Under the pieces are notes generated by a model that had not been told where the DNA came from, searched no databases, and saw only the letters and a program-made list of their open reading frames with translations. Below, in pieces: positions 192 to 6,523 of a stretch of 57,887 nt of DNA; positions within the stretch are counted from its first letter, which is position 1, and each line of letters begins with the position of its first letter. The DNA lies in NCBI GenBank assembly GCA_012735535.1, contig JAAYHC010000021.1, forward strand, positions 1-57,887. The letters are read 5' to 3'. The translations under genes and the position numbers were made by a program. Origin of the DNA: Bacillota bacterium. GTDB lineage: Bacteria; Bacillota; UBA5301.

Positions 192-288
192 GGGGGTAGA
201 TGAGTCCTGGTGGGCTCCCTGGACTTCAAATCCTGTGACGGGCAGCGGTCCTGTCCGTGGTGGGTTCGATTCCCACATACTCCCGCCA
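192..288 (+). tRNA. selC: tRNA-Sec (anticodon UCA)
   Basis: Long acceptor and variable arms, anticodon loop ...GGACTTCAAATCC..., T arm GTGGGTTCGATTCCCAC, 3' GCCA encoded; resembles E. coli selC; directly upstream of selD-selA-selB. Confidence 0.95.
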
Positions 289-411: not shown

Positions 412-1458
412 ATGAGCGCAGATAAAGTCAAACTGACCCAGCTCTCATCAAAAGCAGGTTGAGCAGCCAAATTTGGTCCAGGGGCTCTGGATCAAGTGCT
501 GCGTCACTTGCCGCAGATGCCTGTAGATGAGAATGTCTTGGTAGGGTTCAATACCGTTGATGATGCTGCAGTATACAAGCTAAATGCAGAAACAGCTCTA
601 GTGCAAACGGTCGATTTTTTTACACCAATTGTGGATGATCCCTACTGGTATGGACAGGTTGCCGCTGCCAATGCGCTCAGTGATATTTGGGCGATGGGTG
701 GTCGTCCGTTGATCGCCTTAAATATTGTCTGTTTTCCGTGTAGTTTAGACCTGGCCATACTGGGCGAAATCCTCCGCGGCGGGGCGGAGAAGGTCTTGGA
801 GGCGGGGGCCTTACTGTTAGGCGGCCACACTGTGCAAGATAATGAGCCCAAGTATGGCTTGGCGGTGACCGGGATCGTCAATCCGGACATAGTCTGGTCT
901 AATGTGGGCGCCGTACCGGGGGATAGGCTGATCCTGACCAAGCCGCTCGGAACCGGAGTGATTAGTACAGCGGTTAAAAAGGAAAAGGCTGCGGCCCAGC
1001 ATATCCAAGCGATGGTCGAGTCCATGGCTACCCTAAATAAGCTGGCCGCGGAAACGGCCGCCGCATTCTCGGTACACGCCTGTACGGATATTACCGGGTT
1101 CGGTTTTTTAGGCCATTTAAATGAGATGGCAACCGGCAGTCGAGTCAGCGCCAAAATCTTTACCGGCCGGCTGCCGTTATTGCCCGGGGCCTATGAGTAC
1201 GCCAAGCAAGGTTATTTGCCCGGCGGATTGATGGCAAACCTGCACTTTGTCGAGGAACGGCTGGAAATTGCACCCTCAGTAGATCCGGTTTTGGTCGAGT
1301 TGGCTGCCGACCCTCAGACCTCCGGAGGATTGCTCTTTGCTGTCTCGGCAGATCAGGCGGAGCCGTTATTACAGGCGTTGCAGGGACAAGGGATCCCGGC
1401 TGCGATTGTCGGTGAATTTTGCGAACAAGGGGCTAAGACCCTGTTCTTGGAGGGATAA
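412..1458 (+). CDS. selD: Selenophosphate synthase SelD, selenocysteine-containing (UGA at 460-462)
   Basis: The ORF track starts at 496, but the frame extends to ATG 412 with SD AAGGGGG through one in-frame TGA: MSADKVKLTQLSSKAG-U-AAKFGPGALDQVLRHLP. Sec sits at the catalytic Cys position, followed by the conserved Lys. Confidence 0.95.
475..493 (+). promoter_or_regulatory. Bacterial SECIS-like hairpin of selD
   Basis: GGTCCAG-gggct-CTGGATC, 7 bp (one GU), beginning 12 nt after the UGA; loop begins 19 nt after the UGA and starts with GGG. Confidence 0.8.
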
Positions 1459-1462
1459 AATC

Positions 1463-2875
1463 GTGGGACATGAGCCAAATCACGAGTTAAGGCGTATTCC
1501 CCCAGTTAATGAGCTGCTCGAATTGCCTTCGGTACTGAGACAAGCCCAAAAGTGGCCGCGGGAAGCGGTTGTCGACTTGCTGCGGCTATACATTGATGAG
1601 TTGCGACAAAAGGTTCTCGCCGGACTAGTCCAAGTCCCGGACGATAGAACAGATTGGGATGTACGGCTGGGCGAGTTTTTTGCCAATTGGGAACGGGATT
1701 TGCATTTGCGCCCGGCGATTAACGGGACAGGGGTCATTATTCACACCAATTTAGGTCGTTCGCCCTTGGCCCCGCTGGCCCAGGCAGCCGTGAGCCGCAT
1801 TGCCGCAACATATTCTAATCTAGAGTATGACCTCGAAGCGGGGGAGAGGGGCTCACGATATTCTCATGTTGAGGAGCTACTCACTCAGGTTACCGGCGCC
1901 GAGGCCGGTTTGGTTGTTAACAACAATGCGGCAGCCGTGATGTTGGTCTTAGATACTTTGGCCAAAGATGGCGAGGCGATTGTCTCCCGCGGCGAGCTCG
2001 TTGAAATCGGCGGCTCCTTCCGAATTCCGGAGGTAATGAAACGTAGCGGAGCTATTTTACGCGAGGTTGGCACGACCAACAAGACGCATCTCAGGGATTA
2101 TGCCGAGGCGATCACCCCGGAGACCAAAGTGATCTTAAAGGTACATACAAGCAATTTCCGGATCCAAGGTTTTACGGCTGGGGTTGATCGGACCGACTTA
2201 GCTCGGCTCGCCCATGAGCGGGGATTGCTACTGATCGAAGACCTCGGCAGCGGCGTCCTGATTGATCTCTCGGCTTATGGGCTACCGGCTGAACCGACCG
2301 TACAGCAGAGTATTAAAGCCGGCGTCGATATTGTTACTTTTAGCGGCGACAAGCTTTTAGGCGGACCGCAGGCCGGGATTATCGTCGGCAAAGGCGAATT
2401 AATTCGGCGCATCAAGCAAAACCAGCTGACGCGGGCCTTGCGGATTGACAAGATGACACTGGCGGCCTTGGAAGCGACCCTCAAATTATATCTCGCCCCT
2501 AGCCTGGCGTTGCAGGAGATTCCAACTCTCCGTATGCTGACCGAGCCCCTGGAGGTGGTCGAGGCCAGGGCGCAAAGGTTGGCTGCGGCAATCAGGCAAA
2601 CCTGTGGCGAAGATGCGGTGATCGAAGTGGTTGATGATCTTTCCGAGGCCGGTGGCGGCTCTTTGCCCGGCACCATCATCCCGAGCAAGGCCGTTTCTCT
2701 GGCCTTGCCTTGGATACAGCCACTGTATCTGGAAAGATGGCTGAGGCAACAAAGACCACCGCTCATCGCGCGTCTGAGCCAGGAGCGCTTGTTGATTAGC
2801 GCCCGGACGATCTTTGACGCCGAAATACCGGTGATCGCCGGTTTGCTCAGTAAGAGCCGGGAGGTTAGTAAATAG
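1463..2875 (+). CDS. selA: L-seryl-tRNA(Sec) selenium transferase
   Basis: In-frame GTG at 1463 just after the selD stop; typical SelA sequence including FSGDKLLGGPQAGIIVGK. Confidence 0.95.
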   Translation: MGHEPNHELRRIPPVNELLELPSVLRQAQKWPREAVVDLLRLYIDELRQKVLAGLVQVPDDRTDWDVRLGEFFANWERDLHLRPAINGTGVIIHTNLGRSPLAPLAQAAVSRIAATYSNLEYDLEAGERGSRYSHVEELLTQVTGAEAGLVVNNNAAAVMLVLDTLAKDGEAIVSRGELVEIGGSFRIPEVMKRSGAILREVGTTNKTHLRDYAEAITPETKVILKVHTSNFRIQGFTAGVDRTDLARLAHERGLLLIEDLGSGVLIDLSAYGLPAEPTVQQSIKAGVDIVTFSGDKLLGGPQAGIIVGKGELIRRIKQNQLTRALRIDKMTLAALEATLKLYLAPSLALQEIPTLRMLTEPLEVVEARAQRLAAAIRQTCGEDAVIEVVDDLSEAGGGSLPGTIIPSKAVSLALPWIQPLYLERWLRQQRPPLIARLSQERLLISARTIFDAEIPVIAGLLSKSREVSK

Positions 2876-4804
2876 ATGCGGAGGATTATCATCGGTACCG
2901 CCGGCCATGTTGATCACGGCAAAACCACCTTGGTCAAGGCGATAACCGGGGTGAACACCGACCGGTGGGCTGAGGAGCAGAAGCGCGGACTAACGATCGA
3001 TTTAGGGTTTGCCCCCTTTACCCTGCCGAGCGGCAATCGGGCGGCGATCATTGATGTTCCCGGTCATGAGCGTTTCATAAAAAATATGCTGGCCGGAGTG
3101 AGCAGTATCGATGTCGTCATTCTGGTCGTGGCCGCCGATGAGGGCGTCATGCCGCAAACTAGAGAGCACTTGGATATTATTGATATTTTGCAGATTAAGC
3201 ATGGGGTAGTGGCGGTCACTAAACGGGACCTTGTTGATGAAGAACTTCTCGAGCTGGTTCAGGAAGAAATCCGCGAACACTTGGCCGGGACAACCCTGGC
3301 CGATGCCCCGTTGGTGCCGGTTTCCGCGCTTACCGGCGAAGGCATTCAAGAACTACTCGTCACGGTGGAATCGGTAGTTGCGGAGGCAGCCAAAAGCGAG
3401 CCGTCGAAATTGCTGCGGATGCCGATCGACCGGGTTTTCCAGATTGCCGGTCACGGTACGGTGGTTACCGGTACGCTTTTGGGAGGCACCCTCAGTCTCA
3501 AAGATGAAGTGGAGATCCTGCCTGCCGGCGTGCGAGCGAAGATCCGCCAGATCCAGGTGCACGACGAACCGGTGGAGTCGGTCACGGCCGGCCACCGGGT
3601 GGCCCTGAACTTAGCCGGGGTGGAAAAAAGCGAACTAAAACGGGGAGACGTCATTTTAGAGCCTGGGGTGATCGAACCAACCCAAATGATCGATGCCAAA
3701 GTTACTGTTCTGGCGAGTAGCACGAAAGAGCTCGCCCACCGCGAACGGATCCGGGTCCACATCGGAACGAGTGAGGTCTTGGCCCGCTTGCGAACTTTGG
3801 AAGCGGAGCAGATCGAGTCCGGCAGCTCAGGTTATTGCCAACTCATTTTTGAAGAGCCGGTCGTGGCGGCCCGTGGCGACCTGTTCGTGATCCGATCTTA
3901 CTCCCCGGCGCATACCATCGGAGGCGGCAAAGTATTAAACAGCAACCCCCTGCGGTGGAAGCGCAATAGCCCGAAGACCGCCGAGATTTTGCGCCGAGAG
4001 GAGGCCGGCGATCCGACCGACTTATTACGCCTGGCCTTTGAAGGTGCGCCGCGCGATCTCTTTACCCGGGAGCTATTACGGAAAAAAACTCTACTGGATC
4101 CAGGTGTAATCCGCACCGAACTCCGGACTTTACTGAGACAAGAAGAGATCATTGATATAGAGAACAACCAGGTCTTCTTGTTTGCGAAAGGCGAACAAGA
4201 ACTATGGTCGGAAGCGAAGGAGCTTTTAGCCGCGTTTCACGAACAGTTTCCTTTGCGCAAAGGCTATTCTAAAGAAGAACTCCGCAGCCGTTTGACACCT
4301 TCTTGGGAGAGTCGCCATTTTAACAATCTGCTCACGATCTGGGTTGAGCGGGGAGAACTTGCGGTTTATGACAAAGAAGTCGGATTGCCGGGCAAGGGTC
4401 TGCAATTAGATCCGAAGGAGGCAGCTTTAGCCGAGCAGATCGGTGCCGAGTTTTTGGCCGGTGGCTTTATGCCGCCGAATCTGCCTGATGTGGCGGCACA
4501 GTTTAAGCTTACCGATCAGAAGCTACAAGAGATCTTGAACTACTTGGTGCTGCGTGGAGTACTGGTTAAGGTTGCCGAAAACCTGTATTTCCACGCGACC
4601 AATCTGGCCGAAGCCAAAGCGGTGGCGAAAACCCTGGTGCAAGAAGAAGGCGGTTTTGAGGCGGCTGTTTTTCGCGACCGCACCAATAGCAGCCGTAAGT
4701 ACGCTATCGCTCTGCTCGAGTATTTTGACGGCATCAAATGGACCAAACGAGTTGGCGACAAGCGGGTGGCCGGTGCGGCCATGCGGGAAGAAAACGGAAA
4801 CTAG
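2876..4804 (+). CDS. selB: Selenocysteine-specific translation elongation factor
   Basis: GTPase motifs [19 protein letters not shown] and C-terminal winged-helix region; abuts selA. Confidence 0.96.
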
Positions 4805-4889
4805 CCAACAAGCACCGCTAGTGCCAGCGGGGAATAGGGTGGTAATTGGAGAGAGTCCTGCCGCGTGGGGAGTGGTGTTAGTGGCGGTT

Positions 4890-5087
4890 AATCGTTTGCA
4901 GTGTGTAGTTTGCGGGCGCATCCGCTTCCCCTTTACCAGGGTGGGCAGGGGATGTTTGTGCCGGCAGTGAGAAGCAGATCTCCTGTCTGCTACCCCGGAG
5001 CATACCGGCTATTTGCTCAGAGCTAGGTTGATCGGAGAGTGCTTTTTTGGTGAGCTTCAGCATGTACTGAGAGGTGATTGGTACTGA
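4890..5087 (+). CDS. Putative selenocysteine-containing sigma-factor inhibitor Gin/CsfB-like protein (UGA at 4968-4970 read as Sec)
   Basis: Frame: (GTG)AVNRLQCVVCGRIRFPFTRVGRGCLCRQ-U-EADLLSATPEHTGYLLRARLIGECFFGELQHVLRGDWY*. C-x2-C-x15-C-x2-U-E matches the C-x2-C-x15-C-x2-C-E spacing of B. subtilis Gin as I recall it. SD-like GGGGAG precedes the GTG. csfB lies upstream of yaaO in Bacillus; yaaO follows here. A functional UGA readthrough is inferred, not proven. Confidence 0.6.
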
Positions 5088-6523
5088 AACAACCTTTTTT
5101 GGAGGCGATCATCGCTTATTGTCGCCAGGGTATTTTACCGCTGCACACCCCGGGTCATAAGCAAGGTGCCGGTATTGCGGCCGGGTTCAAAGATGCTTTC
5201 GAGCGGTGGGGACTCCAACTGGACATCGATCCTCCGGTCTTGCCCAGCGGAGAAAGCTGGGTTGCGCCGACAGCCCTGTTGACCGCAGCCCAAGCGATGG
5301 CGGCGGATCTTTTCGGAGCGGCGGAGACTTTTTTTCTGACTAACGGAACTTCCGCGGGGATTCAGGCGATGTTTCTGGCTGCCGGCAAACAAGGGAAAGT
5401 TGTGCTGCCGCGGCAGGTTCATACCTCGGTCATTAGCGCCCTGATTATCAGTGATTGTACGCCCATTTTTGTCAAGCCGCGGGGGACAAGCTCCGATCTA
5501 CCCGATTCTCGGCTCGACCCTGACGAGTTGCGGTTCGTGCTGAGCGCGACCGATGGTATCCGAGCAGTCTTCACCCAAAATCCCAGTTATTATGGTTTTG
5601 CGGCCGATTTACGTCCAATCGCCCAAATTGCCCATGAATATCAGGTTCCGTTATTGGTTGATGAGGCGCACGGTCCTCATTTTTCTTTTTCGGCCGATCT
5701 GCCCCAAGCTGCCTTGCAAGCCGGGGCTGATCTCGTTGCCCAGAGCACCCATAAACTCTTGACCTCCCTCACCGGCAGCTCGATGTTGCATGTCAGCCGA
5801 GCTTATCGCCATCTCGACCTCGGACGCTGTGTCGATCTTGTCCAATCGACCAGTCCGTCCTTTTTGCTCTTAGCTTCCTTGGAGGCGGCCGTCTTTCAGT
5901 TGGCTGAAGTTGGCGAGCAATTGGTGGAGCAGGTGCTTAGCTTGGCCACTGCGTTCCGGGAGAGGGTCAAAGATCTGCCGGGAATTACGATCCTGGGCGA
6001 TGAGGAGATTCAGGCGTGGGGTTATCCCGATTATGACCGGACCAAGTTGGTCCTGGATTTTTCTGGCTTAGGTCTTACCGGTCTGGAAGCCGCGGCCATT
6101 TTGCGCCAGGAATACCAGATTCAGACGGAGATGGCTGATTTCCGCCGGGTGCTGGCCGTCTTGGGACCAGGTGATACCGAGGAAGGAATAATTCGTTTAG
6201 AGCAGGCTTTACGGCTCATGGCGGCAAAATATTACCAGGGGAGAAAGTTGCCGGACCCGCCGGCCTTGCCGGGATTTTCGGAACTTGCCATGACGCCGCG
6301 CGAAGCCTTTTTTGCGGCGGCGGCCGAAGTCCCGCTGGCCCAAGCGGCCGGGATGGTTGCCGCAGAAATTATCGCCCCGTATCCGCCAGGGATTCCGGTG
6401 GTGATTCCGGGGGAAATTATCACTCGGGAGCAAATACAATATTTAGAGGAGCTTGCGGCCTACGGCTTTAACATAGCTGGTACCACCGGCGGGGTTCCTC
6501 GCCGGCTCAGAGTAGTGATATAA
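5078..6523 (+). CDS. Orn/Lys/Arg decarboxylase family protein (YaaO type)
   Basis: PLP motif STHKLLTSLTGSSML, N-terminal LPLHTPGHKQG; TTG start overlaps the end of the Gin-like frame by 10 nt. Confidence 0.9.
   Translation: MVLKQPFLEAIIAYCRQGILPLHTPGHKQGAGIAAGFKDAFERWGLQLDIDPPVLPSGESWVAPTALLTAAQAMAADLFGAAETFFLTNGTSAGIQAMFLAAGKQGKVVLPRQVHTSVISALIISDCTPIFVKPRGTSSDLPDSRLDPDELRFVLSATDGIRAVFTQNPSYYGFAADLRPIAQIAHEYQVPLLVDEAHGPHFSFSADLPQAALQAGADLVAQSTHKLLTSLTGSSMLHVSRAYRHLDLGRCVDLVQSTSPSFLLLASLEAAVFQLAEVGEQLVEQVLSLATAFRERVKDLPGITILGDEEIQAWGYPDYDRTKLVLDFSGLGLTGLEAAAILRQEYQIQTEMADFRRVLAVLGPGDTEEGIIRLEQALRLMAAKYYQGRKLPDPPALPGFSELAMTPREAFFAAAAEVPLAQAAGMVAAEIIAPYPPGIPVVIPGEIITREQIQYLEELAAYGFNIAGTTGGVPRRLRVVI

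Follow-up and report, generated by a model that had tools for sequence, protein, structure and literature searches.

A gin/csfB homologue interrupted by UGA beside selenocysteine genes: probable recent inactivation in a Bacillota genome

Does an in-frame UGA beside a selenocysteine (Sec) operon mark a new selenoprotein or a broken gene? The question is raised by a small frame lying between selB and a yaaO-type gene in a window of 57,887 nucleotides, the whole stretch of Bacillota DNA analysed here (Table 1). A preliminary description of the locus recognised this frame as a homologue of the sigma-factor inhibitor Gin (CsfB), read its UGA as Sec and named a UGC/UGU-to-UGA nonsense mutation as a possible alternative. 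We find that the alternative is now the best explanation, given a missing SECIS element and the lack of any UGA-containing Gin in the relatives searched. A recent Cys-to-UGA nonsense mutation probably inactivated the gene, here called gin.

Table 1 Features of the sel–gin–yaaO region, in window coordinates
Feature	Position	Strand	Evidence
selC, tRNA-Sec	192..288	+	ARAGORN, anticodon TCA
selD, itself a selenoprotein gene	412..1458	+	TIGR00476, 395.6 bits, TGA read through
selA	1445..2875 (start provisional)	+	TIGR00474, 598.7 bits
selB	2876..4804	+	TIGR00475, 395 bits
gin/csfB homologue interrupted by UGA	4881..5087	+	G001 orthologue, profile to 5N7Y, synteny
In-frame UGA, fourth zinc-ligand Cys codon	4968..4970	+	Alignment column; TGT in G001
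Post-UGA stretch examined for bacterial SECIS	4971..5045	+	4-bp CCGG stem only, loop AGCAUA, -4.7 kcal/mol
yaaO-type Orn/Lys/Arg decarboxylase-family gene	5078..6523	+	ORF; weak NCBIfam decarboxylase matches

The Sec gene set upstream of gin is complete, as first described, with selC recognised by ARAGORN and selD, selA and selB by NCBIfam models. The in-frame UGA of selD (460-462) is followed 19 nt later by a SECIS hairpin with loop GGGCU, and read-through of this codon indicates that the organism does use Sec. A plain ORF finder puts the selD start late, at 496. The interval between selB and yaaO had been given as 283 bp, a figure that reaches to the end of the gin frame; from the selB stop at 4804 to the first possible yaaO start at 5078 it is 273 bp.

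Translation of 4881-5084 yields VAVNRLQCVVCGRIRFPFTRVGRGCLCRQ-[UGA]-EADLLSATPEHTGYLLRARLIGECFFGELQHVLRGDWY, and the next stop after the UGA is a TGA at 5085-5087. The frame indeed stays open for 38 codons past the UGA and overlaps the yaaO ORF by 10 nt. Coding potential after the UGA is +7.2 over 37 codons, the remaining two forward frames scoring -16 and -46. These codons align gap-free with gin of G001, a genome of the same family and another genus. Differences between the two genes number 11, 3 and 13 of 22 at codon positions 1, 2 and 3 before the UGA, and 20, 15 and 24 of 37 after it, a pattern indicating that the post-UGA part has spent most of its history as a gene. Searching this genome with a protein query revealed no second intact gin copy. 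Reading of UGA as Trp was ruled out on two grounds: TGA is also the terminator of the gin frame, and the residue aligned with the UGA is Cys.

Judged by its sequence, the 4881-5084 frame with its UGA encodes a divergent Gin/CsfB homologue. The homology first proposed is borne out by a five-member profile (gin and four relatives) that places CsfB, PDB 5N7Y, first with E=1.4e-8. Written with Cys at the UGA, gin scores 15 bits against Pfam Gin (PF10764), for which the cut-off is 27, and the G001 protein (E=8e-17, 46% identical over residues 7-67) has the same low score of 15 bits. Because both fall at this level, Pfam scans of the genome and its order came back without Gin, and detecting gin orthologues required a protein query instead. 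An AlphaFold2 model of the gin product is of moderate confidence (mean pLDDT 74.8), and a PDB fold search gave no significant match. The position of gin by yaaO, also remarked on earlier, belongs to a selB–gin–yaaO order common to relatives. The host carries a sigma-G gene (TIGR02850, 499.9 bits, above cut-off), and the equivalent of sigma-G residue 45 (the N45 determinant) is Gln in genomes with and without gin.

Bacillus subtilis CsfB is an anti-sigma-G (and sigma-E) factor, a treble-clef zinc finger that binds zinc through C11, C14, C30 and C33; the fourth Cys is a structural zinc ligand with no known catalytic role (PMC5890618). The metal-ligand spacing of gin, C8-x2-C11-x15-C27-x2-U30, is that of CsfB, which puts the UGA at the fourth ligand and leaves three zinc-ligand Cys at the right spacing. 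With Cys put in place of UGA, the five-way alignment has C8, C11, G12, C27, C30 and P39 invariant, and C30, the UGA column, is Cys in all four relatives. Both the spacing and the replacement of the fourth ligand thus stand as first reported.

Within the family, G001 is the only member besides this genome found to keep gin, which there lies between selB and yaaO and has TGT (Cys) at the UGA site. Three class relatives (G004, G005 and G006) have Gins that score fully against Pfam, all of the Cys type. The gene order is selB–gin–yaaO in G001 and G004, gin–yaaO in G005 and selB–gin in G006. Adjacency to selB was therefore ruled out as evidence for Sec: relatives with Cys-containing Gin share the order, and an inherited synteny says nothing on Sec. 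G002, assigned to UBA5301 through a 100% identical SelB, lacks gin in the selB–yaaO interval, and no copy turned up in the rest of that genome, which is 81% complete. No stop-holding Gin appeared among the roughly 160 matches listed from 399 genomes of the phylum, nor in 32 cut-off-passing matches from 50 Sec-decoding (selB-carrying) genomes. The alternation of UGA and Cys among relatives that would speak for Sec thus comes down to one UGA here versus Cys elsewhere, with no second UGA-containing Gin in the genomes searched.

We next turn to the SECIS element, for which the bacterial rule called for a stem of 4 bp or more and a loop matching.?G[GU], located 16-37 nt downstream of the UGA. We treated nine in-frame UGAs in this genome as clear Sec sites: those of selD, PrxU (NF040737), a formate dehydrogenase (identified by its sequence), three split-Soret-cytochrome-like genes (one scanned: NF047622, below cut-off), a UGSC-type gene (NF041046, below cut-off), a small CYSGGU protein with no NCBIfam family, and a molbindin. 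The rule was passed by 9/9 of these sites, with the hairpin 17-31 nt after the UGA, a somewhat flattering figure because a SECIS filter had been used in finding several of them; selD, PrxU and molbindin stand as Sec sites without it. Sec-type selD genes of other genomes passed in 19 of 21 cases, and ordinary Cys codons passed by chance at 32% (n = 3307). At gin, nothing that fits this rule was found 16-37 nt after the UGA. The gene fits only a loose form of it (any G in the first two loop bases) with an unremarkable best hairpin, and about a quarter of Cys codons attain its folding energy. Set against the Sec sites and the chance rate, this absence amounts to roughly ten-fold evidence against Sec. 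It is evidence rather than proof, because some accepted SECIS elements lie outside the consensus, according to a 2026 list of prokaryotic selenoproteins (PMC13188914). Folding energy of the whole region was rejected as a SECIS criterion, as it fails to separate Sec sites from background.

How often are genes broken in this genome? Comparison of 202 other genes (60,771 codons) with part of G001 uncovered 0 true internal stops or frameshifts, the stops printed in that comparison lying, by inspection, outside gene ends; nonsense is therefore rare here. The Cys-to-UGA change is moreover one of 23-27 possible nonsense routes in gin, 6 of them Cys to TGA. For a genome-wide pseudogene count, interrupted frames listed purely on coding score were discarded, since ordinary gene pairs dominate that list.

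Together, these results are best accommodated by recent inactivation, although the probabilities that we attach to this and the other explanations are judgements and not computed posteriors. Inactivation is favoured because the SECIS is missing, no second UGA-containing Gin is found, the affected Cys is structural and gin is absent in G002. The gene is a gin/csfB orthologue. Its ancestor would have coded for a treble-clef zinc-finger anti-sigma-G factor, and a single base change, TGT or TGC to TGA, presumably altered the codon of the fourth zinc ligand in this lineage. Translation would most likely end at the UGA, giving a 29-residue peptide without the fourth ligand, the helix and the C-terminus, and sigma-G would then not be inhibited by Gin here. 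Sporulation of Clostridioides difficile proceeds without a CsfB orthologue (PMC3789822). As the rest of the frame is still gene-like, the TGA change must be recent. We infer that no Sec is inserted at the UGA and that gin is inactive. Weighing against inactivation are the intact state of all 202 genes compared, the fall of the UGA on one Cys among so many nonsense routes, the 38 open, codon-like triplets behind it, a host that makes selenoproteins, and accepted SECIS of which some depart from consensus (PMC13188914).

The strongest rival, which we consider unlikely, is that the UGA is decoded as Sec, perhaps with an unusual SECIS, to give a selenoprotein anti-sigma factor with a CxxC...CxxU metal site. 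The rarity of broken genes and the choice of one among 23-27 routes favour it to a degree. Further in its favour, the UGA falls exactly on an invariant Cys, the frame after it is homologous and codon-like, the Sec machinery is complete and other selenoproteins occur in the genome. Against it stand the lack of a G[GU]-loop SECIS, the lack of a second UGA-containing Gin in either genome set, the Cys in G001 and the missing gene in G002, so that the original reading of the UGA as Sec does not hold up well. If it were true, Sec at the fourth zinc ligand may let oxidants or the supply of selenium affect zinc binding and, through it, the inhibition of sigma-G; making sigma-G control in the forespore depend on redox state or selenium would be a new role for Sec. 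To our knowledge, no earlier anti-sigma factor is known to contain Sec. Because CsfB oxidised by H2O2 in vitro loses zinc (PMC3174212), a redox role is conceivable. As far as searched, the 2026 list contains no anti-sigma-factor selenoprotein; it does include, as a predicted selenoprotein, a putative FmdB-family regulator with UxxU (PMC13188914).

Somewhat less probable again is an error of sequencing or assembly, or a variant carried by a minor strain, in which case gin would be intact with TGT or TGC as its true codon. One base change would be enough, G001 has TGT, and the assembly is of the metagenome type with 94 contigs; however, the 60,771 compared codons hold no stop or frameshift error, and an error at precisely codon 30 of gin is a priori very unlikely. 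We regard as highly improbable an ancestral Sec-containing Gin of the family, replaced by Cys in G001 with its hairpin kept, lost with the gene in G002 and decaying here with UGA but no SECIS, since its support, an 8-bp hairpin 18 nt after the TGT of the G001 gene, is a single case noticed after the fact and all class relatives have Cys-containing Gin.

That hairpin, in the G001 Cys-type gin (L002:1498-1698, minus), has an AGUA loop and a folding energy of -8.2 kcal/mol; values of -7 kcal/mol or better occur at about 3% of Cys codons. It resembles the AGUU-loop real SECIS of the present genome and may be either the relic of a former Sec codon or a product of chance.

With recent inactivation as the preferred reading, gin illustrates that a Cys codon turned to nonsense next to a sel operon can give the appearance of a selenoprotein. 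Sec and nonsense are told apart by three controls: UGA in relatives, calibration of SECIS within the same genome and the fate of the gene in its family. These controls also pointed to a better candidate, a molbindin (Mop domain) with a conserved in-frame UGA at G000:C80:11474-11692 (L252:1501-1719; G000 is this genome), which scores 49.7 bits with TIGR00638, just under the cut-off of 55. Its counterpart in G002, from another genus (G002:C109:4942-5154; L253:1501-1713, minus), is 69% identical and has UGA at the same codon. In the hairpin after the UGA, the loop CGUGAU is kept while the stem changes from GUU/AAC to GUG/CAC, a paired change identified by eye. Across 399 genomes of the phylum, 15 molbindin matches with TGAs (3 with one, 12 with two) were found in nine families. 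We found no molbindin in the 2026 list of prokaryotic selenoproteins (PMC13188914), and no link between molbindin and selenoproteins in the papers searched. Molbindin is a candidate new selenoprotein family and looks a stronger case than gin.

Additional UGA-containing genes came to light in the same genome. The three split-Soret-cytochrome-like genes lie at G000:C11 near 33025 and 34530 (minus) and at G000:C55 near 27209, each with an AGUU-loop hairpin 31 nt after the UGA. At G000:C11 near 27100 (+), a small CYSGG-UGA protein with a SECIS-like hairpin and no NCBIfam match is possibly an unnamed selenoprotein. At G000:C43 near 1015 (+), a 584-residue protein joins a UGSC-type Sec domain to a longer C-terminal part, with weak matches to UGSC_fam and glycine reductase selenoprotein B.

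Among known systems, the Sec-containing FmdB-family regulator (predicted; TIGR02605, UxxU; PMC13188914) resembles gin as a small putative regulator with proposed Sec in a CxxC-like motif, but it belongs to another family and has two Sec residues, whereas gin has no demonstrable SECIS. In selenoproteins of the CxxU type (SelW-like, GrdA), UGA likewise takes the place of the final Cys codon of a CxxC motif; there, however, the motif is redox and a SECIS is present, whereas gin has a structural zinc site without one. The closest likeness is to Gin/CsfB itself (PF10764; B. subtilis CsfB, PDB 5N7Y), which gin matches in CxxC-x15-CxxC spacing, in size, in the Glu after the fourth ligand, in position near yaaO and in a host with sigma-G. 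It differs in the UGA at the fourth ligand codon, in a diverged C-terminal part and in an extra Cys two residues before the third ligand, a feature that it shares with the G001 protein.
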